DNA of 41,827 nucleotides from an uncultured Bacteroidales bacterium (GTDB taxonomy: Bacteria > Bacteroidota > Bacteroidia > Bacteroidales > Marinilabiliaceae). The notes under the pieces are model-generated. The model searched no databases, had not been told where the DNA came from, and saw only the letters and a program-made list of their open reading frames with translations. Position 1 is the first letter of the stretch, and each line of letters starts with the position of its first letter. Below, in pieces: positions 1-12,908 of this stretch. The stretch covers positions 1 to 41,827 of the forward strand of contig CALYZD010000011.1 in the NCBI GenBank assembly GCA_945607565.1, given 5' to 3'. The translations under genes and the position numbers were made by a program.

Positions 1-2793
1 GCCGAAAAGCGGCGAGTGCATCACCCACGGCTTGGCAAGCATCACTGTGCGCGGCACCAGTGTCAGGACGGCCAGTATGTCGATGAACGACAGATGATTA
101 GCTACCACCACAACGGGTTTGGACGTGTCGAGCCGGCCGATGGTCTCGAAACTGATATAACGCTTTGCGACGCCGAAAAACGCCACGACGGAGCGATGCA
201 CCAATCGACCGACAGCCTTGTGCCGAAGCTGTTGCGAGACCGGGAGCAGGCTGATGCAGCGGCAGACGACGCTCACAATCACGGCCCCGACGGCGAAAGT
301 GCCGTAGGTGACTGCGGTGACGGCCATGCGCCAGAACGAATTGGGCGCGCAGCCCTGCTCGGCCCGACCCGAAATGATGAGCCGGAACAGGATGGGCTGT
401 ATGGTGTATGACGTGATGATGACCGAAATCATCCCGAGAATTGAGATAGTACCAATGGAATGGACGGCCGGATGGTCGGCAAATATCTGAACACCAAGGC
501 CTACGATAATAGTGAAAGCCGACAGCGCGATGGCCGTCTTGTGCGACGACAGCGTGCGCCGGCCGGTGCGATATTCGGTCTGGAGCCCGTCCATGATGAA
601 GATGCTGAAGTCGTCGCCGACGCCGAAAATGAAAGTCGAAACGATGATGTTGACCACGTTGAACTCGATGCCGAAGAAGCCCATGAACCCTAAGATTATC
701 AGCCAACTGACGCACATAGGCAGGAACGAGATGACGAACAGTTCGAAGCGGCCGTAGGACAGCAGCAGCGCCAGCCCGACAAGGAACGAACTGATGTAGA
801 GAATCAGATTGAAATCGTCGACCACCGAAACGGCGGCCTTGCGGACGTAGTAGCCACGGTCGGCGATGACCACCGACGGGTCGCCCTCGAAGAGCGACAT
901 CACCGAGTCGCGATTGGCGACGGGGAGAACTATGTAGCTGATAAGCATCATGTTAGGCTGCGCGTCGGTCAGCCACGGGCCGACTATGGGCGAGGCGGCC
1001 AGAGTGTCGAGCAGCGTCGGCTCGAAATGCGGACGGTGGCGGAGCAAAGCCTCGAAGCGCGAAAAACTGCCGGGCGCAAAGCCCGTGAGCTCGGCCTGCC
1101 GGCTGAGAATGGCGAGCGAACTGTCGATGCGCGCGTCGGTCCAGTAGCTGTTCCAACGGTCGATGCGGCGCTGCTGCTCGGCGGGCGGCACAAGCAGGAA
1201 TGGCGACACGGATTTTGAACTGATAATCAGACCATTGTCGCACAGCGAATCGATTTTCAGCTGGAGGCGTGCGCTGTTGTCGGCAAGTTCGGCCAAAGAG
1301 CTGCCGGTGGTCACCAGCATTGCCTTGTGGCCGCCGCTGTTGAAGAGTTCCTGCGACAATTCGCTGGCTTTCCGCGTTTTGGCATCGCCCTGGAAGTTCA
1401 GGTTCGACATGTCGCTATCGAATCGGACATCGTCCATAAAGAAAAGCGAACCAACTGAAAGCAAGATAATTAGAACCACCAGGACTTTGTTTCGCGAAAA
1501 ATCGTAGTTCCCGAAACGGTCGGCCAGGCGCGACAGGAAATTGTCGGCCTCGCGACGCTTTTGCGGCAGAAGGTGAGGCAGAAAGACGAGGCAGAAAATG
1601 GTGGTGCCCACGAGCGCCAGCGACGCGAAAAGCCCCAGATCGCGCAGGAGGCTGTTGTTGGTGAACATCAGGCCGACGAACGCGCCGATGGTGGTGAAGC
1701 TGCCAATTGTCAGTGGCTGAGCCATTTCCTTGATCAGCTGCTCGATGGTTTCGGTGTGCTGGCGATGCGTGATGACGTGTATCGAATAGCTCATGGCCAC
1801 GCCCATGACGGTGGTCCCGGCGCCGACGGCCAGCAACGAGATGCTGGCGCCGCCGGCCGCAATCAGCGCAAGGGCGAAAAGTCCGCCCCAAAGCACGGGC
1901 AGCGTGATGAGGAACATACTCCAAATGTTTCGGAACAAGACAGTTACGACCACGCCGATTATTATCAGCCCGATGGCCAGCACCTGCATCTCGTCGTGCT
2001 TGACCTGGCGGGCGTTGAGAACGGCGATGGTCGGCGCGCCATACTGACTGACCTCGATGTCGGCATTGCGATCCTCTATCGTGCTGATAAGCTGATTGAT
2101 ACGGTCGATGAGCGCGGCGTTGGAACCCGTGTTTTCGAAATGGCTTGCAAGTTCCACGAAAACGACCAGACTGCGCATGTCGGCCGTGAAGACATAACCG
2201 TCTATCAGATTGTAGTTCATGTCGTTGGCAAGCGTGCCGACGCGCTGGAGGATTGGCGAGCCGATGCCGAGCGGGTCGTGCTGCATGTATTGCCTGATGC
2301 CGAGCGAAAGCGGGCTGGCGAGCAGGCCATAGTTCTGCCGCATTTTCCGGGCCACGGCGTCGGGGCGGAAGAGCGAATCCATCCGCACGAAATCGGAGTC
2401 GGAAAGCAGGACGGGCAGGTTGCGGCAAATCATTTCGGGCACCTTTTCGACGGCCGAATCGTCCATGGTGGTCCGGACGCTGATGCCGGCAGTGGCGTCG
2501 GCCAACAGGCTGTCGGCCAGCTCGTCGGCAACGTCCATCAGGCGCAGCGGGTCGACCTCGGCGGTGTCTTTGGCGGTGACGAAAATCATGATTCTGTCCA
2601 TCGCCTTCATGCGGGTGATGACCTCGAAGCGGTCGGTGTTGCCACGGTCGGGAAAGAAACTGGCGAGGCTCTCGTCGAAGCGGATGCCCAGCGATAGGAC
2701 CAGCATCAGAGCGAATGTCAGCACGAGCATCATCACAAACGCCACTCGGCTGACTTTGAGCTTGTTATAGATTAAAACGAAAAATTTACCCAC
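1..2793 (-). CDS. MMPL/RND-family transporter fused to a lysophospholipid acyltransferase domain (3' end beyond the left edge)
   Basis: The minus-strand frame is open from a GTG at 2793 to base 1, giving 931 codons without a stop. It shows the MMPL/RND layout twice: a membrane helix at about residues 12-30, a large soluble loop, then a helix bundle at about 265-395; and again a helix at about 435-455, a loop, and a bundle at about 655-810 (including the stretch FIFGVGDDFSIFIMD). After another hydrophobic stretch (about 820-850) the same frame gives NHLSFID at 899-905, the NHxxxxD catalytic motif of PlsC-type acyltransferases, so the window holds only the start of that domain. From memory, Bacteroidota have trifunctional MMPL transporter/acyltransferase/methyltransferase proteins linked to aryl-polyene or flexirubin-like lipid clusters; a methyltransferase here would lie outside the window. 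The gene starts 32 bases after murF and is probably cotranscribed. The GTG start is inferred. The substrate is unknown; lipid export is an inference. Confidence 0.85.
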   Translation of the reverse strand, partial: MGKFFVLIYNKLKVSRVAFVMMLVLTFALMLVLSLGIRFDESLASFFPDRGNTDRFEVITRMKAMDRIMIFVTAKDTAEVDPLRLMDVADELADSLLADATAGISVRTTMDDSAVEKVPEMICRNLPVLLSDSDFVRMDSLFRPDAVARKMRQNYGLLASPLSLGIRQYMQHDPLGIGSPILQRVGTLANDMNYNLIDGYVFTADMRSLVVFVELASHFENTGSNAALIDRINQLISTIEDRNADIEVSQYGAPTIAVLNARQVKHDEMQVLAIGLIIIGVVVTVLFRNIWSMFLITLPVLWGGLFALALIAAGGASISLLAVGAGTTVMGVAMSYSIHVITHRQHTETIEQLIKEMAQPLTIGSFTTIGAFVGLMFTNNSLLRDLGLFASLALVGTTIFCLVFLPHLLPQKRREADNFLSRLADRFGNYDFSRNKVLVVLIILLSVGSLFFMDDVRFDSDMSNLNFQGDAKTRKASELSQELFNSGGHKAMLVTTGSSLAELADNSARLQLKIDSLCDNGLIISSKSVSPFLLVPPAEQQRRIDRWNSYWTDARIDSSLAILSRQAELTGFAPGSFSRFEALLRHRPHFEPTLLDTLAASPIVGPWLTDAQPNMMLISYIVLPVANRDSVMSLFEGDPSVVIADRGYYVRKAAVSVVDDFNLILYISSFLVGLALLLSYGRFELFVISFLPMCVSWLIILGFMGFFGIEFNVVNIIVSTFIFGVGDDFSIFIMDGLQTEYRTGRRTLSSHKTAIALSAFTIIVGLGVQIFADHPAVHSIGTISILGMISVIITSYTIQPILFRLIISGRAEQGCAPNSFWRMAVTAVTYGTFAVGAVIVSVVCRCISLLPVSQQLRHKAVGRLVHRSVVAFFGVAKRYISFETIGRLDTSKPVVVVANHLSFIDILAVLTLVPRTVMLAKPWVMHSPLFG

Positions 2794-2825: not shown

Positions 2826-4127
2826 TCAGAAAAGCGGCACCAACTGTTCGAGCCGGTTGGAGCGCGAACCTTTGATCAGCACAAAGCGATGACGGAAATC
2901 GTTGTCGGACAGCTGCTTGACAAGATCTTCGGTGGTGTCGAAGAAATGAAATTCGGGGAACTGTGCGGCGTGCTCGGCAAATTCGGGGCCGACTAACCAT
3001 GCGTCGCAAATACCTGAATGCCTGAGTTTTTCGAGAATATGACGATGCTCGTCCGAACTGATGGCTCCCAACTCGCGCATGGCGCCGAGGATGGCCATCT
3101 TGCCGCTACGGGCGAGCGAGGCAAAATTGTCGAGCGAGGCGTTCATGCTCGACGGGTTGGCGTTGTATGCGTCGAGCAGCAGCGTGTTGCGCGACGTCTC
3201 GACGATCTGCGAACGACTGTTGGTGGGACGATATTCCGAAAGAGCCTGACAAATGTCATCGGCATCGACCCCAAAAAACGTACCAACGGTGGCGGCGGCC
3301 AATGCGTTTTCGAGATTATAAGAACCTGTTATTTGGGTAGTTACGATGCAATAATCGGCATCAGCCTCGGTCTTCCAGAGCATCTGCATGAAGTCGGACT
3401 GGCAGCCGATGCGGCCCGAAACCAGGCAGTGCCGCGCGTCCGAAGTGCCGTAGCAGACGCGCTGCGGGTAGTCGCCGAGCATGCGCACGAGGTTGTCGTT
3501 GTCGGCGTTCAGGAAGATGGTGCCTGAGGTCCGGCGGACGTAGTCGTAGAGTTCGGCCTTGGTCTGCACCACGCCCTCGAACGAGCCAAAGCCCTGAATA
3601 TGAGCTTTTCCAACATTCGTAATCAGTCCATGCGAAGGCTTGGCGATGGCCACAAGTTCGGCAATGTCGCCGGGGTGGCTTGCGCCCATCTCGATGACGG
3701 CGATGTCATAGCTGCTGTCGACGGACAGCACCGAAAGCGGCACGCCAATCTGGTTGTTGAGATTGCCGGCCGTCGCAAAGGTGCGGAACTTCTTGGACAG
3801 GACGGCCGCCACCAGCTCTTTGGTCGTCGTCTTGCCATTGGTGCCAGTGATGCCGACCACCGGGATGCTGAGGCGGTCGCGATGGTAGGCGGCAAGCTGC
3901 TGCAGGGCCGCGGTGGTGTCGGGCACAAGGGTGCAGCGCGGGTCGGAGGCAAAGTCGGGATTGCTGCACACAACGTGCATCGCGCCGCCGCCAAGTGCCT
4001 CGGCCACAAAGGCGTTGGCATCGAAGCGCTCGCCCTTGAGAGCAAAGAAAAGTGAGCCCGGGCGGATGTTGCGAGTGTCGGTGCAGATGCCGGTCGACCG
4101 CCCGAAAATGCTGTAAAGATGTTCCAT
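2826..4127 (-). CDS. murF: UDP-N-acetylmuramoyl-tripeptide--D-alanyl-D-alanine ligase MurF
   Basis: MurF adds D-Ala-D-Ala to the UDP-MurNAc tripeptide, the last cytoplasmic step of peptidoglycan precursor synthesis, using ATP. The protein begins MEHLYSIFGRSTGICTDTR and continues GSLFFALKGERFDAN, the usual MurF N-terminal substrate-binding region. The ATP-binding loop GTNGKTTT is at about residues 95-102, followed by the Mur-ligase stretch VIEMGASHPGDI and the C-terminal domain motif LLDAYNANPSSM. Length is 433 residues, normal for the family. The frame stays open upstream to a TTG at 4190, but a perfect -7 promoter element (4195-4188) overlaps that codon, so the ATG at 4127 is the better start. 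It leads into the MMPL-acyltransferase gene, 32 bases downstream. Confidence 0.95.
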   Translation of the reverse strand: MEHLYSIFGRSTGICTDTRNIRPGSLFFALKGERFDANAFVAEALGGGAMHVVCSNPDFASDPRCTLVPDTTAALQQLAAYHRDRLSIPVVGITGTNGKTTTKELVAAVLSKKFRTFATAGNLNNQIGVPLSVLSVDSSYDIAVIEMGASHPGDIAELVAIAKPSHGLITNVGKAHIQGFGSFEGVVQTKAELYDYVRRTSGTIFLNADNDNLVRMLGDYPQRVCYGTSDARHCLVSGRIGCQSDFMQMLWKTEADADYCIVTTQITGSYNLENALAAATVGTFFGVDADDICQALSEYRPTNSRSQIVETSRNTLLLDAYNANPSSMNASLDNFASLARSGKMAILGAMRELGAISSDEHRHILEKLRHSGICDAWLVGPEFAEHAAQFPEFHFFDTTEDLVKQLSDNDFRHRFVLIKGSRSNRLEQLVPLF

Positions 4128-4187
4128 TTCTGACTGATTTTGCGTTGGAAATCGACTGCGGAATAATTGTATTTCGCTTCGGATTGT

Positions 4188-4195
4188 CAAAGATA
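4188..4195 (-). promoter_or_regulatory. Candidate -7 promoter element of murF
   Basis: The minus strand reads TATCTTTG, an exact match to the Bacteroidota -7 consensus TAnnTTTG. Transcription would begin near 4180, about 50 bases before the ATG at 4127. I see no good -33 TTTG at the expected distance, so this rests on the -7 element alone. Confidence 0.45.
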
Positions 4196-4292: not shown

Positions 4293-5930
<1,638 letters not shown>

Positions 5931-6195: not shown

Positions 6196-7698
6196 TTAAT
6201 TTCTGTTTTTCTTGCCGGCCACCGGCGAACCTACGCGAACCATTGCGCAGCGGAAACCGATATCGTCGCGGCTCTCGCGTTCGTCGAGGAAGCGGCGGGT
6301 GCCGGGGCTGAGCCAATAGGCACGGTCGCGCCACGAACCGCCTTTGTAGACCCTTGTGCGGTCGGAAACCAAACTGCGGAGGCCCGATTGGGTAGGCGTG
6401 CCGGCATACATGGTTTCGGAATTATTCTCGGAAGTCGTCCAGTCGGTCGAGATGTTCGAGCGGTTGTCGCCATCAAGGTAGTTGCGGTTGTCGGCCGTGC
6501 GGTAATTCTTGCGGTCGGCAATGTCCTTGTCGGTTTCCTGACGATACTTGATGCGGCCCAGGCTGTCCTTCTCGACAGGTGCGCCGGTGTCGTCGAGCAC
6601 TTTTGTCTGGAAGTTGTTGCCACGATAGGGGTTGAACTCCTCAACATCGTCGAAACTCAAGGGACGGTAAACGTCGGCCACCCACTCGTTGACGTTGCCG
6701 GCCATGCAGTAGAGGCCGTAGTCGTTGGGATAGTATGATTTGACGTTGACGGTGATGTCGCCTTCGTCGTTCAGCTTGCCGGCAGTACCCATCATATCAC
6801 CGTTGCCACGGACGAAGTTGGCCATCATTCGGCCGCGTTCGGATTCGCCGGCGTTACGAACCACGTGACCGTTCCAAGGGAAGATCTTACGGTCGGACAT
6901 GCGTTCGTCGCGGGTGTTGCCAATCAGACCAAGGGCGGCGTATTCCCATTCGGCCTCGGTTGGAAGGCGGTATTTGGGCAGCAGGATGCCGTCGTCCCAG
7001 CGCACGCGGCGCGTGTCTTTGTTGGGGTCGAGGTCTTCCATCGGGTGCTTGCCCGGAGTACCTTCGTATTGTCCGTAGAGATAAGCTTCTGTGTCAAAGT
7101 TGTTTTCGCCGCTCTGGTCGGCAACGTTCAGTTCCATAATGCCCTGTTCGATCAGGATAAGCTCGTTGACGCGGTCGGTACGCCACTTGCAGAAGTTGGA
7201 GGCCTGAATCCAGCTGACGCCCACGACGGGATAGTCGGAATAGGCCGGGTGGCGGAGGTAGTTCTCGACATAAGGCTCGTTGTAGGCCAAAGCCCTGCGC
7301 CACACGAGCGTGTCGGGCAGCGCTGCCTTGTATTGGTCGGGATATTCGCTGTAGACGCGGTTGACCCAATAGAGCCATTCGCGGTAGTTGGCGTTGCTCA
7401 CTTCGCATTCGTCGATATAGAACGACGGCACTGTGACGCGGCGCGGGGTGTTGTCCATACCATAGATAACGTCCTGCTCCACGCGACCCATAATGAAAGT
7501 ACCGCCTTCGATAAACACCAGACCGGGACCGGTCTGCTGCTCGTAGCCCGACTGGTATTCGAATCCGCCCCAATCAGGGTTGTTATATTGCCAACCTGTG
7601 ACGCTCGAGGCGCCACTGCCGCCGCCGGACGAGCAAGAAGTCAGCATCAGCAAACCACCTGCAACCGAAGCGGCCAAGGACTTTGAAATCATCTTCAT
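6196..7698 (-). CDS. gldJ: GldJ-like lipoprotein of the type IX secretion/gliding system (formylglycine-generating-enzyme fold)
   Basis: The N-terminus is a lipoprotein signal ending LTSC, which would place the lipid on C22. Next comes the GldJ hallmark TGWQYNNPDWGGFE at about residues 34-47, then GPGLVFIEGGTFIMG, the start of an FGE-sulfatase (SUMF1-type) fold that runs through YRLPTEAEWEYAA and GNVNEWVADVY to YKGGSWRDRAYWLSPGTRRF and DIGFRCAM. Length is 500 residues. In Flavobacterium GldJ is an outer-membrane lipoprotein needed for gliding and for T9SS function; the FGE fold is structural there, not known to be enzymatic. It diverges from porU, which supports T9SS membership. GldK/PorK shares the fold, but the N-terminal motif favours GldJ. 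Promoter elements and an inverted repeat lie just upstream. Confidence 0.88.
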   Translation of the reverse strand: MKMISKSLAASVAGGLLMLTSCSSGGGSGASSVTGWQYNNPDWGGFEYQSGYEQQTGPGLVFIEGGTFIMGRVEQDVIYGMDNTPRRVTVPSFYIDECEVSNANYREWLYWVNRVYSEYPDQYKAALPDTLVWRRALAYNEPYVENYLRHPAYSDYPVVGVSWIQASNFCKWRTDRVNELILIEQGIMELNVADQSGENNFDTEAYLYGQYEGTPGKHPMEDLDPNKDTRRVRWDDGILLPKYRLPTEAEWEYAALGLIGNTRDERMSDRKIFPWNGHVVRNAGESERGRMMANFVRGNGDMMGTAGKLNDEGDITVNVKSYYPNDYGLYCMAGNVNEWVADVYRPLSFDDVEEFNPYRGNNFQTKVLDDTGAPVEKDSLGRIKYRQETDKDIADRKNYRTADNRNYLDGDNRSNISTDWTTSENNSETMYAGTPTQSGLRSLVSDRTRVYKGGSWRDRAYWLSPGTRRFLDERESRDDIGFRCAMVRVGSPVAGKKNRN

Positions 7699-7727
7699 AA
7701 CTCTAAGACTATATTATTTCTTTTTTT

Positions 7728-7756
7728 CAAATTTATTGCGCAGGTCGGATTGCAAC
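7728..7756 (-). promoter_or_regulatory. Candidate gldJ promoter
   Basis: The minus strand has GTTG at 7756-7753, a 17-base spacer, and TAAATTTG at 7735-7728, an exact TAnnTTTG -7 element. Spacing is slightly short against the usual 19-21. The implied leader is about 23 bases. Confidence 0.5.
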
Positions 7757-7762
7757 CTGCGC
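7738..7762. repeat. Inverted repeat overlapping the gldJ -33 region
   Basis: GCGCAGGT (7738-7745) and ACCTGCGC (7755-7762) are perfect 8-bp arms separated by nine bases. The repeat covers the spacer and the -33 of the gldJ promoter, so it could be an operator. It has no T-run and is not placed as a terminator. Confidence 0.6.
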
Positions 7763-7881
7763 TGAAAAACGGTTATTTATACTGCAAAAATATAAAAAGG
7801 TTGTTTTGTCGTATCTATTTGGCTCAAAAAAATATGATTATTTCGGAATTGAGAAAATCTGAATATACTAACTCGAAAAGC

Positions 7882-7914
7882 TTGGCGTTATTGCATCAAT
7901 TATTGCTTATTTTG
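7882..7914 (+). promoter_or_regulatory. Candidate porU promoter
   Basis: TTG at 7882-7884 and TTATTTTG at 7907-7914 (one mismatch to TAnnTTTG) are separated by 22 bases. The implied start near 7921 leaves a leader of about 16 bases before the porU ATG. Both elements are imperfect. Confidence 0.35.
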
Positions 7915-7936
7915 TACTGATTTTCATCTATACTAT

Positions 7937-10900
7937 ATGCACAAGACTTTATCGGTGTTGCTGATGCTGGCAAGTGCGGCGACTTGGGCGCAGACCGGCA
8001 CTCACAAATACAATATCGACTGGCAGATAACACCCGCCGCCATCACGTTCGACGGCGAAACGGGAATCAACGATACGCTGGACATACCTTTCGCCTCGCA
8101 TCTGATTGACTGCGGCGAGGCCTTTGTGGAGCTCGACACGTGCAATTCGGTCGAGGCGCCGCAAGCCTTTGCCGACACCGTGCTGCAGCTGCTGCCCGAC
8201 GGATGGAGGTGCTTCGACAGCCGGATTGTATGCATCCGCAAGAAAAACCTGAACCACATCTGCGTCTACCCGTTCTTCAAGGACGGCAGCGGGCGCTGGA
8301 GGCTGGCATCGGGCTACAGCCTGACCACCTGGGGGACGGCCGGAGTGAGCCCCGATGCCGGGCCAAGGCCCAAGGACGCCCTGTCGTCGGTGCTGGCCGG
8401 GGGCACATGGGTCAAGGTGCGGGTGGAGTCGACGGGCGTCAAACGCATTGGCTACTCGACACTTGCATCGTGGGGATTTGCCGACCCGACGCGTGTGGCC
8501 GTCTATGGCAACGGCGGCAAGCAGCTGGCCTATGCCAACTCGTCGATGCGCCCTGTCGACATTGCGAAACTGCCTGTGCATCACGCCAACAATGCCATTT
8601 ATTTCTATGCGCGCGGCACCGAGAGCTGGAGCTATTCGAAGAGCTCGGATTTCTTCAGCTGCACCACGCATCTGTACGACACCTACGCCTACTACTACAT
8701 CACCGAGAGCGACGAGCCGTCGGCCGAGCCGGAGCTGATCGAGGCCTACAAGGCCGGGAAGGTGAGCGAAGTCTACACGGACTACGACTATTACGAGCAT
8801 CACGAAGTCAACACGACCAACATAGCTGGCTCGGGACGCGAGCTGTATGGCGAATCGTTCGGCAGCAGCACGCCCAGACGCACCATCAGCTTCGGGCTGA
8901 CGGGGCTCGAAGGCGAGACGACGGCCAAAATCAAGGCCAAGGTGGCGGCCACCGGCAGCGGAATGTCGAACATCGCGTTTGCGCACAACGGCAGCCAGCT
9001 CACGTCGTCGGACATTGCGGCCAACTCGTCGGACGAGGCGGCGCGCTCGGTGACGACGTCTATCGTGCAGTTCGGCACCACAAGCAGCCGGCTCGACATC
9101 GACATCAGCTACACGCCACCGTCGGCCACGTCGACGGCCTGGCTCGACTATCTGACAATCAACGCACAGGTGCCGCTGAAAATGGGCAGCACCAAGCAGC
9201 TGCAGTTCCGCAAGGGCGACTCCTTCTCGGGCACCGACATGGTGCGGTTCTGCATTTCGGGCGCGACGGCCAGCACGCGCGTCTGGAAGGTGGGCAGCTG
9301 TACGGCGCCGGTCGAGATGGCTGGCGAAATCACCGACGGCGTGTTCCGGTTCAATGCCAAATGCGGCAGCGACAACGAGTTCGTGGCCTTCGACGACAAC
9401 GCGCAGCTCGAAGAACCCACGTTTGTGGGCACGGTGGCCAATCAGGACCTGCACGCGATGCCGGCGGTCAACTATCTGATAATAGCCCACCCCGACTTCC
9501 TGACGCAGGCGCAGGAACTGGCCGAACTGCACCGGTCGGCCGGACGGCTCAGCACGGCCGTGGCGACCACCGAACAGATCTACAACGAATATTCGTCGGG
9601 CACGCGCGACGCGTCCGCCATCCGCGACTTCATCCGCTCCATCTACCTGAAAGCCGACGACGGTGACGCCGACGCCCTGAAATACGTCCTGCTCTTCGGC
9701 GACGGGCACTACAACAACCTGGCCTACGGCAGCACCAACCCGACCAACAAAATCCCGACCTACGAATCGGCACAGTCGCTCTACCTGTCGTCGACCTACT
9801 GCACCGACGACTTCTACGGATTCCTCGACTACTACGAGGGCAGCTCGGACCTGAGCGCGCGCATGGACGTGGCCGTGGGACGAATGCCGGTCAGCACCAC
9901 CGAGCAAGCCGACATCGTGGTGCAGAAGAGCCGCAACTACATGAACGGCAAGGCACCCGGCAAGTGGAAGAAAAAAGCCGTCTTCCTGGCCGACGACGGC
10001 GACACCAACGAGCACGTGAACTATGCCGAACTGAACGCCGCCCGCGTTGCCAAGGAGCATTCCGACATGGACGTCGAGCGCATCTACCTCGACGGATACA
10101 CCGTGACCACCGGCGCCACCGGCAAGACCTATCCGCAGGCCAACACCGACCTGGAAACAGCCATAGCCAACGGCATTGTGCTGCTCAACTATGTGGGTCA
10201 CGGCAGCCCGAGGGCACTGTCGGCCGAGCTGGTGGTGACGCTGCAGAGCGTGCGCCGCTGGACCAATGCCGACAAGCTGTTCTTCTTCATCACGGCCACC
10301 TGCGAGTTCGCGCCGTTCGATGCCGGCAACACGTCGGCGGGCGAATATGCGCTGCTCAATGCCAACGGCGGCTGCATCTCCATCCTGTCGACCACGCGCC
10401 TCGTCTACGGCGACCGCAGCTATCAGTTCAACAGCAACATCTTCAACAAACTCTTCAGCGCCGACACCCTCGGACACGCCTACACCTATGGCGACGCCCT
10501 GCTCGACGCCAAAATAAAGGCCGGCGGGAGCAGCAACACGCTCAAATACGTCTACCTGGGCGACCCGGCACTGGCGCCGCCGCTGAACACCTACACCATC
10601 GTCACCGACAGCATCAACGGCGAGGCCTACGACGAGTCGACCGAACCGATTGCGCCACTGCGAATCAACTCGATTGTGGGAAGCGTGCGCGACGCCGACG
10701 GCAACGTGGCCACCGACTTCGACGGCCAGATAGACCTGTCGCTCTTCGACAAAGAGCGGACGGTCAACACCCTCGGCAACGAAGGCCCGGCGTTCTCCTA
10801 CACGGCCTATGCCGACAAGCTCTACACCGGCACGGTGGACGTGAGCGGAGGCCGCTTCGGCATGGAACTGCTGCTGTCGAAGAACTCGAGCTACGAAACC

Positions 10901-11677
10901 TCGTATGGCAAACTGCTCTACTTCGGCACCGCCTCCGACGGCCGCGAAGCGTCGGGAGCCGACGCGCAGGTGCTGGTGGGCGGCGTGCCGCAGACCATCG
11001 ACAACGACACCGTGGGCCCCGACATCTGCGCGTGGATCAACTTCGAGAACTTCGTGAACGGCCAGACCGTGGGCAACACTCCGCGTCTGCACATCGACCT
11101 CTCGGACCCGAGCGGCATCAACACGGCCGGCGCCGGCGTGGGCCACGACATAGCGCTGATCATCAACGGCAACCGGGCATCGGCCACCGTGCTCAACAGC
11201 CTCTATGCCGGCGACAGCAGCTTCCGCAGCGGCAGCATCGACTACAACTTCGGCACGCTCGACGACGGCAGATACGAGGTCGAGATAAAGGCGTGGGACA
11301 ACATGAACAACTCGTCGTCGAAGACGCTCACGTTCTACGTCAGGGCCGACGCCTCCATCAGCTTCGAGAACGTCCGCATCTATCCGAACCCCTTCGGCGC
11401 ATCGGCAGGCAAGCTGACGCTCAGCTTCGAGCACAGCGCTCCGGGCGAAGTGCTCAACCTCGACATACGCCTCTTTTCACTCGGCGGCGGGTTGATGATA
11501 AGGAATTATATTACTACTATTGCCAGCCAGAATTCGGTGACGCCCATCGACCTCATGAGCGTCGACAGCCGGTTTGCGGCACTGCCGCACGGCGTCTATC
11601 TGCTGCAGGTGCGCGTCGACAACGGCAACGGCCGCAGCGGCGAAATCAACAAAAAAATAGTGGTGGCCGGACAATAA
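7937..11677 (+). CDS. porU: PorU, type IX secretion system sortase (C25 gingipain-like peptidase)
   Basis: PorU is the cell-surface transpeptidase of the T9SS: it removes the C-terminal sorting domain of exported proteins and attaches them to anionic lipopolysaccharide. A signal peptide covers about the first 18 residues. The caspase-like C25 domain carries both expected catalytic residues: His755 in LLNYVGHGSP and Cys789 in FITATCEFAPFD, 34 residues apart. The last 100 residues look like a T9SS C-terminal domain, with YPNPF, then LPHGVYLLQVRVDNG and a final KKIVVAGQ; in known PorU this domain is kept and binds PorV. Length is 1246 residues, somewhat longer than the Porphyromonas protein as I recall it. 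It is followed by porV after 88 bases and then ispF. A 1161-codon antisense frame exists over this gene and is a composition artefact. Confidence 0.95.
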   Translation: MHKTLSVLLMLASAATWAQTGTHKYNIDWQITPAAITFDGETGINDTLDIPFASHLIDCGEAFVELDTCNSVEAPQAFADTVLQLLPDGWRCFDSRIVCIRKKNLNHICVYPFFKDGSGRWRLASGYSLTTWGTAGVSPDAGPRPKDALSSVLAGGTWVKVRVESTGVKRIGYSTLASWGFADPTRVAVYGNGGKQLAYANSSMRPVDIAKLPVHHANNAIYFYARGTESWSYSKSSDFFSCTTHLYDTYAYYYITESDEPSAEPELIEAYKAGKVSEVYTDYDYYEHHEVNTTNIAGSGRELYGESFGSSTPRRTISFGLTGLEGETTAKIKAKVAATGSGMSNIAFAHNGSQLTSSDIAANSSDEAARSVTTSIVQFGTTSSRLDIDISYTPPSATSTAWLDYLTINAQVPLKMGSTKQLQFRKGDSFSGTDMVRFCISGATASTRVWKVGSCTAPVEMAGEITDGVFRFNAKCGSDNEFVAFDDNAQLEEPTFVGTVANQDLHAMPAVNYLIIAHPDFLTQAQELAELHRSAGRLSTAVATTEQIYNEYSSGTRDASAIRDFIRSIYLKADDGDADALKYVLLFGDGHYNNLAYGSTNPTNKIPTYESAQSLYLSSTYCTDDFYGFLDYYEGSSDLSARMDVAVGRMPVSTTEQADIVVQKSRNYMNGKAPGKWKKKAVFLADDGDTNEHVNYAELNAARVAKEHSDMDVERIYLDGYTVTTGATGKTYPQANTDLETAIANGIVLLNYVGHGSPRALSAELVVTLQSVRRWTNADKLFFFITATCEFAPFDAGNTSAGEYALLNANGGCISILSTTRLVYGDRSYQFNSNIFNKLFSADTLGHAYTYGDALLDAKIKAGGSSNTLKYVYLGDPALAPPLNTYTIVTDSINGEAYDESTEPIAPLRINSIVGSVRDADGNVATDFDGQIDLSLFDKERTVNTLGNEGPAFSYTAYADKLYTGTVDVSGGRFGMELLLSKNSSYETSYGKLLYFGTASDGREASGADAQVLVGGVPQTIDNDTVGPDICAWINFENFVNGQTVGNTPRLHIDLSDPSGINTAGAGVGHDIALIINGNRASATVLNSLYAGDSSFRSGSIDYNFGTLDDGRYEVEIKAWDNMNNSSSKTLTFYVRADASISFENVRIYPNPFGASAGKLTLSFEHSAPGEVLNLDIRLFSLGGGLMIRNYITTIASQNSVTPIDLMSVDSRFAALPHGVYLLQVRVDNGNGRSGEINKKIVVAGQ

Positions 11678-11752
11678 AAAGAACATCCTGAAAGTTTTCC
11701 CGTGTGTGGCCGGAAACGGCGCGCATCGGAAACGAACCATAAAAAAACAATA

Positions 11753-11764
11753 TCGATATATCGA
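11753..11764. repeat. Perfect 12-bp palindrome immediately before the porV start codon
   Basis: TCGATATATCGA reads the same on both strands and ends one base before the porV ATG at 11766, where ribosome contact would occur. It may be chance, or it may affect translation. Confidence 0.5.
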
Positions 11765-11765
11765 C

Positions 11766-12908
11766 ATGAAGAGAACAACCAAAGCCATTGCAATCGCGAT
11801 GCTTGCTCTGCCGTGGACGGCAGCGGCACAAGACAGCAACAACCCCATCAATACCGTAGTCCCGTTCCTCAACATCTCGCCCGAATCGCGCGGAAGCGGC
11901 ATGGGCGACGCCGGAGTGGCCACCCTGCCCGACATCAATTCGCAGCACTGGAACCCGGCCAAATACGCCTTCATGACAAGCAAGGCCGGAGCGTCGTTCT
12001 CGGTCACGCCGTGGCTCAGGCAGCTGGTGAGCGACATCAACCTGTTCTACGTGGCCGGATACTACCGCATCAACAAGCGGAGCACGGCAAGCGCATCGCT
12101 CCGCTACTTTTCGCTGGGCGAAATCACCTATATCGACGAGATGGGCAACGAGCTCTACACCGGCGATCCCAACGAATTTGCCATCGACGCGGCCTATTCG
12201 CTGATGCTCTCCAAGAGCTTCTCGGGCGCCATTGCGCTGCGCTACATCCGCTCCGACATGGGCTCGAGCACCACCGAGAGCGGCGAAGACCTGGTGCCGG
12301 GCAACGCCTTTGCGGCCGACGTGGCTTTCTACTTCAAGAAGAACATCGCCATCGATCGCAATCGGGCCGACATCATGGCGGGCATCAACATTTCGAACAT
12401 CGGCTCCAAGATCAGCTACGACGAGGGTACGACCGAGGAATTCCTGCCGGCCAATCTGCGCATCGGCGCCGGAATAATGTATGAGATTGACCGCTACAAC
12501 AAGATTGGCGCCACCATCGAGTTCAACAAACTGCTGGTGCCCACGCCCGACCGCGGCGAGGACGGCTCGATGGACTATGAGGAATGTCATGACTACCGCA
12601 GCACGTCAGTGCCGGCGTCAATCTTCAAGTCGTTTGGCGATGCGCCGGGCGGTGCCAAGGAGGAACTGCGCGAGATCACCATCGGCGGCGGCCTCGAATA
12701 TGTATACAACGACATGTTCTCGCTCCGGGGCGGATACTTCCACGAAAACGAATACAAAGGCAACCGCAAGTACGCCACGGCCGGTGTCGGCATCAAATAT
12801 CAGATGCTCAACGTCGAAGCCAGCTACCTGATAGCCACGCAGAGCAACAGCGCACTGGCCAACACCATCCGCATCACCGTGGGCTTCGACCTCGGGAAAA
12901 TACTCTAA
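11766..12908 (+). CDS. porV: PorV (LptO), outer-membrane beta-barrel of the type IX secretion system
   Basis: PorV is an outer-membrane barrel of the FadL-like fold that receives T9SS substrates from the translocon and presents them to PorU. The chosen start gives MKRTTKAIAIAMLALPWTAAAQ, a clean signal peptide; the frame is open 20 codons upstream but that stretch is not signal-like. The mature start INTVVPFLNISPESRGSGMGDAGVA and SQHWNPAKYAF are typical of the PorV family, and the rest alternates short strands and ends in aromatic-rich barrel strands (VGFDLGKIL). Length is 380 residues. It follows porU by 88 bases and precedes ispF by 13 bases, so the three are probably cotranscribed. Confidence 0.95.
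   Translation: MKRTTKAIAIAMLALPWTAAAQDSNNPINTVVPFLNISPESRGSGMGDAGVATLPDINSQHWNPAKYAFMTSKAGASFSVTPWLRQLVSDINLFYVAGYYRINKRSTASASLRYFSLGEITYIDEMGNELYTGDPNEFAIDAAYSLMLSKSFSGAIALRYIRSDMGSSTTESGEDLVPGNAFAADVAFYFKKNIAIDRNRADIMAGINISNIGSKISYDEGTTEEFLPANLRIGAGIMYEIDRYNKIGATIEFNKLLVPTPDRGEDGSMDYEECHDYRSTSVPASIFKSFGDAPGGAKEELREITIGGGLEYVYNDMFSLRGGYFHENEYKGNRKYATAGVGIKYQMLNVEASYLIATQSNSALANTIRITVGFDLGKIL

Follow-up and report, generated by a model that had tools for sequence, protein, structure and literature searches.

The E. coli aryl-polyene cluster encodes a predicted acyltransferase, ApeD, an RND transporter, ApeM, a LolA-like protein, ApeL, and a methyltransferase, ApeB, in the portion of PMC8253772 drawn on here, all as separate genes. 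According to the same portion of that paper, the acyltransferase and RND functions of the ape genes are predictions; deletion of apeD gives late intermediates, and for apeM no aryl-polyene metabolites were detected, so that, on this account, the E. coli transporter mutant does not simply accumulate the finished lipid. For the E. coli aryl polyene it also gives the anchor as not known, and it notes a Xenorhabdus lipid as solved (PMC8253772). In Chitinophaga pinensis, flxP-flxU include putative acyltransferase, LolA, glycosyltransferase and exporter genes, and flexirubin export is said to go by "yet unknown mechanisms," as stated in the passages of PMC3992019 that deal with these genes. A single chain combining such activities is already a named NCBI protein type, "trifunctional MMPL family transporter/lysophospholipid acyltransferase/class I SAM-dependent methyltransferase," exemplified by WP_264793640.1 from an Aureispira anguillae plasmid, a protein of 1,292 residues with Pfam MMPL, acyltransferase and methyltransferase matches over the cut-offs. 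The equivalent protein of Persicobacter is named only as an acyltransferase. In the open-licence literature, we found no paper that uses the name trifunctional MMPL family transporter, none that joins MMPL with a SAM-dependent methyltransferase and lysophospholipid acyltransferase, none that joins flexirubin with MMPL, and none that joins aryl polyene with MMPL, methyltransferase and acyltransferase.

The DNA analyzed here, which we refer to as the window, is a stretch of 41,827 nucleotides that makes up one complete contig (G000:C11) of an assembly in 190 contigs that is 92.89% complete. At its left end, on the minus strand (positions 1..2793), lies the gene of an MMPL/RND exporter whose C terminus runs into the first part of a PlsC acyltransferase, as assigned from the open frame, MMPL and HpnN/HAE3 profiles, and comparison with relatives. 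The architecture is thus not new and the window copy is a truncated further member of the named type. As the initial annotation had claimed, a single frame of at least 931 codons is present, running from a GTG at 2793 to base 1 without a stop. Its proposal of two MMPL helix bundles is likewise borne out, by hydropathy peaks (residues 17–35, between residues 269 and 455, and between residues 661 and 807) and by paired profile stretches. Both the HpnN model TIGR03480 (E 3e-28) and the HAE3 model TIGR00921 match two stretches of the frame, each far under its curated cut-off, and Pfam MMPL matches one stretch, in the second half of the transporter only (E 3.3e-8). Collectively, the profiles, the hydropathy and the full-length alignment to the family identify the encoded protein, at the level of sequence, as a two-repeat RND/MMPL transporter with both halves present. 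The second repeat contains an Asp-Asp pair (residues 727–728, minus strand, positions 610..615) within the segment FGVGDDF (residues 723–729, nucleotides 607–627), a putative RND proton-relay site. The matching site of the first repeat, residues 335–336 in the region 331–337 (nucleotides 1783–1803), is Ser-Tyr in the window protein and Asp-Tyr in some relatives; among the aligned rows, an Asp occurs at this position only in L047, L048, L051, L052 and L098. If the Asp sites do form a proton relay, one half of it has been changed in the lineage of the window.

The PlsC motif I, NHLSFID (NHx4D), is located at residues 899–905 (minus strand, positions 79..99), exactly where it had been annotated, and is supported by alignment with relatives. 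The profile check that had been proposed for the two domains gave a mixed outcome: Pfam MMPL did hit the frame, although in its second half only, whereas PF01553 (PlsC) gave no reported match at E <= 1e-3 on the 931-residue fragment, and the two NCBIfam acyltransferase models that match its last 96 and 44 residues (E 6.6e-6 and 5.1e-4) do so below their cut-offs. The PlsC assignment of the window C terminus nevertheless stands, because full-length relatives whose alignment reaches window residue 931 have strong PF01553 matches (e.g., 2.3e-20). With transporter and PlsC start in one frame, the suggestion that acylation and lipid export are physically linked is a fair inference.

Our search of 61 genomes returned some match at E <= 0.001 in 55, in 39 of which the best match was remote (E > 1e-20). 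Twelve relatives show 36–42% identity to the window protein over 913–929 residues, with open frames of 1,084–1,302 residues, and the fusion is therefore not a product of chance. Within the family, 30 of 71 genomes carry a transporter relative at E <= 1e-60 and the open frames, fragments aside, range from about 830 residues (standalone transporters) to about 1,290. A wider contig scan with the window protein found only six distant loci, at 27–30%, in Latescibacterota and Neomarinimicrobiota/Marinimicrobia. In a maximum-likelihood tree built on the transporter portion of 30 rows and rooted at the midpoint only, the window groups with nine rows of genus g5, with support of 100/100 for the group of 10 and 100/99 for the nine without the window. 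PF01553 is found in all nine rows of this sister clade, and, apart from DUF3419 traces in L087 (E 0.039) and L089 (E 0.12), a Pfam methyltransferase at E <= 1 in none. L040 and L088 retain a similarly long tail in which the glycine motif is altered. The five rows next to the window's group (L041, L042, L043, L044 and L046) all contain PF01553 and methyltransferase domains, in agreement with the statement of the initial annotation that similar fusions exist, some with a methyltransferase. In another branch, L045, L050 and L054 have PlsC without a significant methyltransferase match, and L049, L053, L096 and L097 have no PlsC match and weak methyltransferase traces at best (L097, E 0.007). Thus, members of this transporter family can do without the PlsC domain, which by alignment is absent from the standalone transporters and from L053, L096 and L097. 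The transporter genes of L053, L096, L097 and L049 encode 982–994 residues with no PlsC domain, the transporter being followed at once by a shortened tail. In L049 a stretch as long as PlsC is retained but has no NHx4D; among the aligned relatives with the domain, L049 is the only one to lack this motif. These domain counts rest on Pfam searches of the C-terminal parts of 20 relatives and of L040, L041 and the transporter on contig C22 in full, with L047, L048, L051, L052, L055, L057 and L098 judged by length and visible sequence; since most matches weaker than about E 0.1 do not pass the HMMER filters, a finding of none at E <= 1 does not cover every possible match.

Two branches of relatives have thus lost or eroded their C-terminal enzymes, so a trifunctional C terminus should not be presumed for the window protein. 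Indeed, the window protein may be bifunctional, combining exporter and PlsC domain without a methyltransferase domain. Because the window is one whole contig, the fusion gene is cut by the assembly end at base 1, and would presumably be complete beyond it; any remaining PlsC motifs (FPEGTRS-type and later) and any methyltransferase domain would lie past this edge. A search of the assembly with the C-terminal parts of two relatives did not find the missing part: the last 352 residues of the G016 relative hit nothing but PlsC genes, on C59 and C39, and, weakly, a methyltransferase-like sequence on C19, and the last 154 residues of the G088 relative matched only the same PlsC genes, neither of which lies at a contig edge.

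The surroundings of the fusion in relatives were surveyed at loci from 16 other genomes, that of G013 being spread over two contig pieces. In nine of the 16, a DUF2062 glycosyltransferase gene lies directly upstream of the transporter relative, and in L091, L096 and L097 two genes intervene. No DUF2062 glycosyltransferase gene was found near L088, L093, L044 or L045, the contigs of L093 and L044 ending close by; the genomes of L088 and L093 carry it on another contig. In G016 (L041), the fusion belongs to one run of genes with AMP-binding, C45/AAT, FAD oxidoreductase, DUF2062 glycosyltransferase, FabA-like (below the Pfam cut-off), LolA, polysaccharide deacetylase and ketosynthase genes. A Persicobacter psychrovividus plasmid shows the same gene order as G016, with the addition of ACPs and a chain length factor, and an aromatic ammonia-lyase heads the stretch viewed. 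Most genes of the Persicobacter run recur on the Aureispira anguillae plasmid, where other genes, about 10 kb in all, separate the glycosyltransferase from the fusion and the stretches viewed contain no ammonia-lyase. In genus g5, the fusion is on another contig than the ketosynthase match in G004, G084, G088, G089 and G094 and about 140 kb from it in G090; in G004 the LolA, FabA-like and DUF2062 glycosyltransferase genes stay with the fusion.

The transporter also co-occurs with these genes across genomes, though not independently of kinship. The pathway ketosynthase (query from contig C3, E <= 1e-30) is present in 30 of the 71 family genomes, the same 30 that carry the transporter relative; a Fisher test on the resulting counts (30/0/0/41) gives 1e-20 with kinship ignored. 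The better argument from co-occurrence is patchiness inside genera, where the same genomes carry both: three of 14 in g12, three of nine in g3 and three of five in g21. In G029 the ketosynthase match (5.4e-39, a frame of 405 residues) is no better than those given by second ketosynthases elsewhere. The DUF2062 glycosyltransferase is found in 29 of the 71 genomes, all within the 30, the exception being G085, in which the transporter is represented solely by a standalone relative of 840 residues. A separate methyltransferase is found in 25 of the 71, again all within the 30, leaving five of the 30 without a match.

Pathway genes are present elsewhere in the genome of the window. Contig C3 carries three ketosynthase genes, an ACP, a 4HBT thioesterase, a lipid A-type acyltransferase, a DUF2062 glycosyltransferase and an ammonia-lyase that passes the NCBI FlxA flexirubin tyrosine ammonia-lyase model NF053541 (817.3 vs. 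a cut-off of 700 bits). It also encodes a methyltransferase 48% identical to the separate methyltransferase of the Persicobacter cluster, which speaks against a loss of methylation from the pathway in this genome. A 449-residue frame on C3 (L095:3047-4396) was rejected as a gene, as it has no Pfam match at E <= 1e-3 and corresponds to a small cluster protein in its final 137 residues only (ApeP-like dehydratase match at no better than E 0.01, below cut-off), the remainder being a wrong frame over the methyltransferase gene. On contig C22 (L039), a standalone 832-residue MMPL transporter lies beside a ketosynthase, LolA, an FAD oxidoreductase and a PlsC protein of 455 residues, which together may amount to another export set of this genome. 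The pathway is thus present, spread over C3, the window contig and perhaps C22.

On its readable side, the fusion is bordered by murF, GH43, gldJ-like, porU and porV genes, and within the 41.8-kb window it is not linked to flexirubin/aryl-polyene pathway genes. The murF gene (2826..4190, minus strand) is indeed directly upstream of the fusion in the direction of transcription, as had been annotated; it passes TIGR01143 (389.8 vs. a cut-off of 288.6 bits), and it probably starts at the ATG at 4127, since residue 20–22 is where the alignment with most relatives begins. The intervening gap is 32 bases (2794–2825), a spacing that allows a single transcript. Farther on lie a GH43 family gene identified by Pfam (4305-5930, plus strand) and a gldJ-like type IX secretion/gliding lipoprotein gene (6196..7698, minus strand) that falls just under the TIGR03524 cut-off (452.6 vs. 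458.2 bits). Positions 6196-12908 form a type IX secretion block composed of the gldJ-like lipoprotein, the PorU sortase and PorV, the latter two over their cut-offs. A murF match at E <= 1e-50 was obtained in 13 of 16 relatives searched, with flanks examined up to 1.5 kb (about 0.6 kb in L113). In these 13 murF loci, none of the 12 relatives with a readable downstream side has a transporter relative beside murF, a count that excludes L107, whose downstream side is off the contig. By tblastn, gldJ adjoins murF in seven of the 13; the gldJ/murF region of the window differs, because the GH43 gene separates the two, and the open-licence literature yielded no paper on gldJ together with murF. The idea that murF takes the place of a lipid synthase as partner of the fusion did not hold: ketosynthase genes of the pathway are on C3, and another ketosynthase is on C22. 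The murF gene is best read as an accidental neighbor, in a position that is not conserved and looks like a local rearrangement. In sum, what the initial annotation observed is confirmed and its interpretation is partly supported.

Because both the neighbors in relatives and the genome-wide co-occurrence point to a flexirubin/aryl-polyene pathway, the pathway of these fusions can be inferred, although the substrate itself, which the initial annotation had called unsettled, is still a matter of prediction. We consider it probable that the fusion is an inner-membrane acyltransferase-exporter of the flexirubin/aryl-polyene lipid pathway, displaced behind murF by rearrangement. It could serve another lipid, because the standalone transporter on C22 could do the pathway's own export. 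The protein would then have left the pigment pathway to acylate and export another envelope lipid, co-expressed with murF. The same-strand 32-base gap to murF, the separation of the fusion from the pathway genes on C3, the second transporter beside a ketosynthase on C22, and the several genus-g5 genomes in which the fusion is also apart from the ketosynthase match are all compatible with such a change. However, in 30 of 30 genomes its presence goes with that of the pathway ketosynthase, in 29 also with that of the DUF2062 glycosyltransferase, and murF adjacency was seen in no relative, making a switch of lipid unlikely, though worth some weight. We regard as quite improbable a more elaborate scenario in which the exporter-acyltransferase lost its methyltransferase, was uncoupled from the pigment cluster and is now under control of the gldJ/murF region, which would tie acylated-lipid export to peptidoglycan precursor supply.

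Two further alternatives were weighed. That the displaced gene is decaying, and perhaps already broken past the contig edge, would accord with the missing or eroded C-terminal domains in two branches of relatives and with the missing sequence past the edge, yet the frame has 931 stop-free codons, its PlsC motif I is intact and its GC content (58.5%) is like that of murF (57.9%), so decay appears very unlikely. The murF junction might, in turn, be an artefact of an assembly in 190 contigs, given that the murF/fusion arrangement was seen in no relative; the window is without N and GC is similar on either side of the junction, and we give this explanation hardly any credence.

If the fusion does act in the flexirubin/aryl-polyene pathway, its PlsC domain would most likely work at the cytoplasmic face, joining the pigment polyketide (or a fatty acyl chain) by an ester bond to an anchor, either a lipid or a glycolipid, in whose synthesis the partner DUF2062 glycosyltransferase may take part. 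The covalently attached MMPL transporter would then release the acylated product from the inner membrane to LolA-like carriers bound for the outer membrane, and the fusion could hand that product directly to its exporter. By analogy with the E. coli aryl-polyene genes and the flexirubin cluster, attachment by PlsC should precede MMPL transfer to LolA-like carriers. An acyltransferase and an exporter in one chain suggest which two steps of the pathway adjoin, and relatives in which the methyltransferase is eroded or the acyltransferase domain is missing offer natural variants from which the role of each domain might be worked out; the truncated window copy, as a single case, adds little.

The window protein belongs to the same RND/MMPL superfamily as the hopanoid transporter HpnN, and HpnN structures (5khn, 5khs and 6wu0) are the only solved structures matched at E <= 0.01 (best 3.9e-8, residues 667–803); however, it scores far below the HpnN cut-offs (98.3 vs. 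751.85 bits and 44.9 vs. 1,100), and to our knowledge HpnN has no PlsC domain. Residues 21–931 align with the Persicobacter equivalent at 29% over 925 positions. As far as it can be read, to residue 931, where it is cut, the window protein has the same domain order as the NCBI trifunctional type, from which it differs in sitting behind murF, apart from the pathway genes. The E. coli apeB, apeD, apeJ, apeL and apeM genes and Chitinophaga flxP-flxU, as far as the portions of the two papers used here describe them, resemble it by predicted function: each set includes an acyltransferase, an exporter, a LolA-like carrier and a glycosyltransferase, and the E. coli aryl-polyene genes include a methyltransferase as well. 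In E. coli, on the same partial basis, these functions are separate genes in one cluster, whereas in the window a single chain combines transporter and acyltransferase, and its gene is located away from the cluster.
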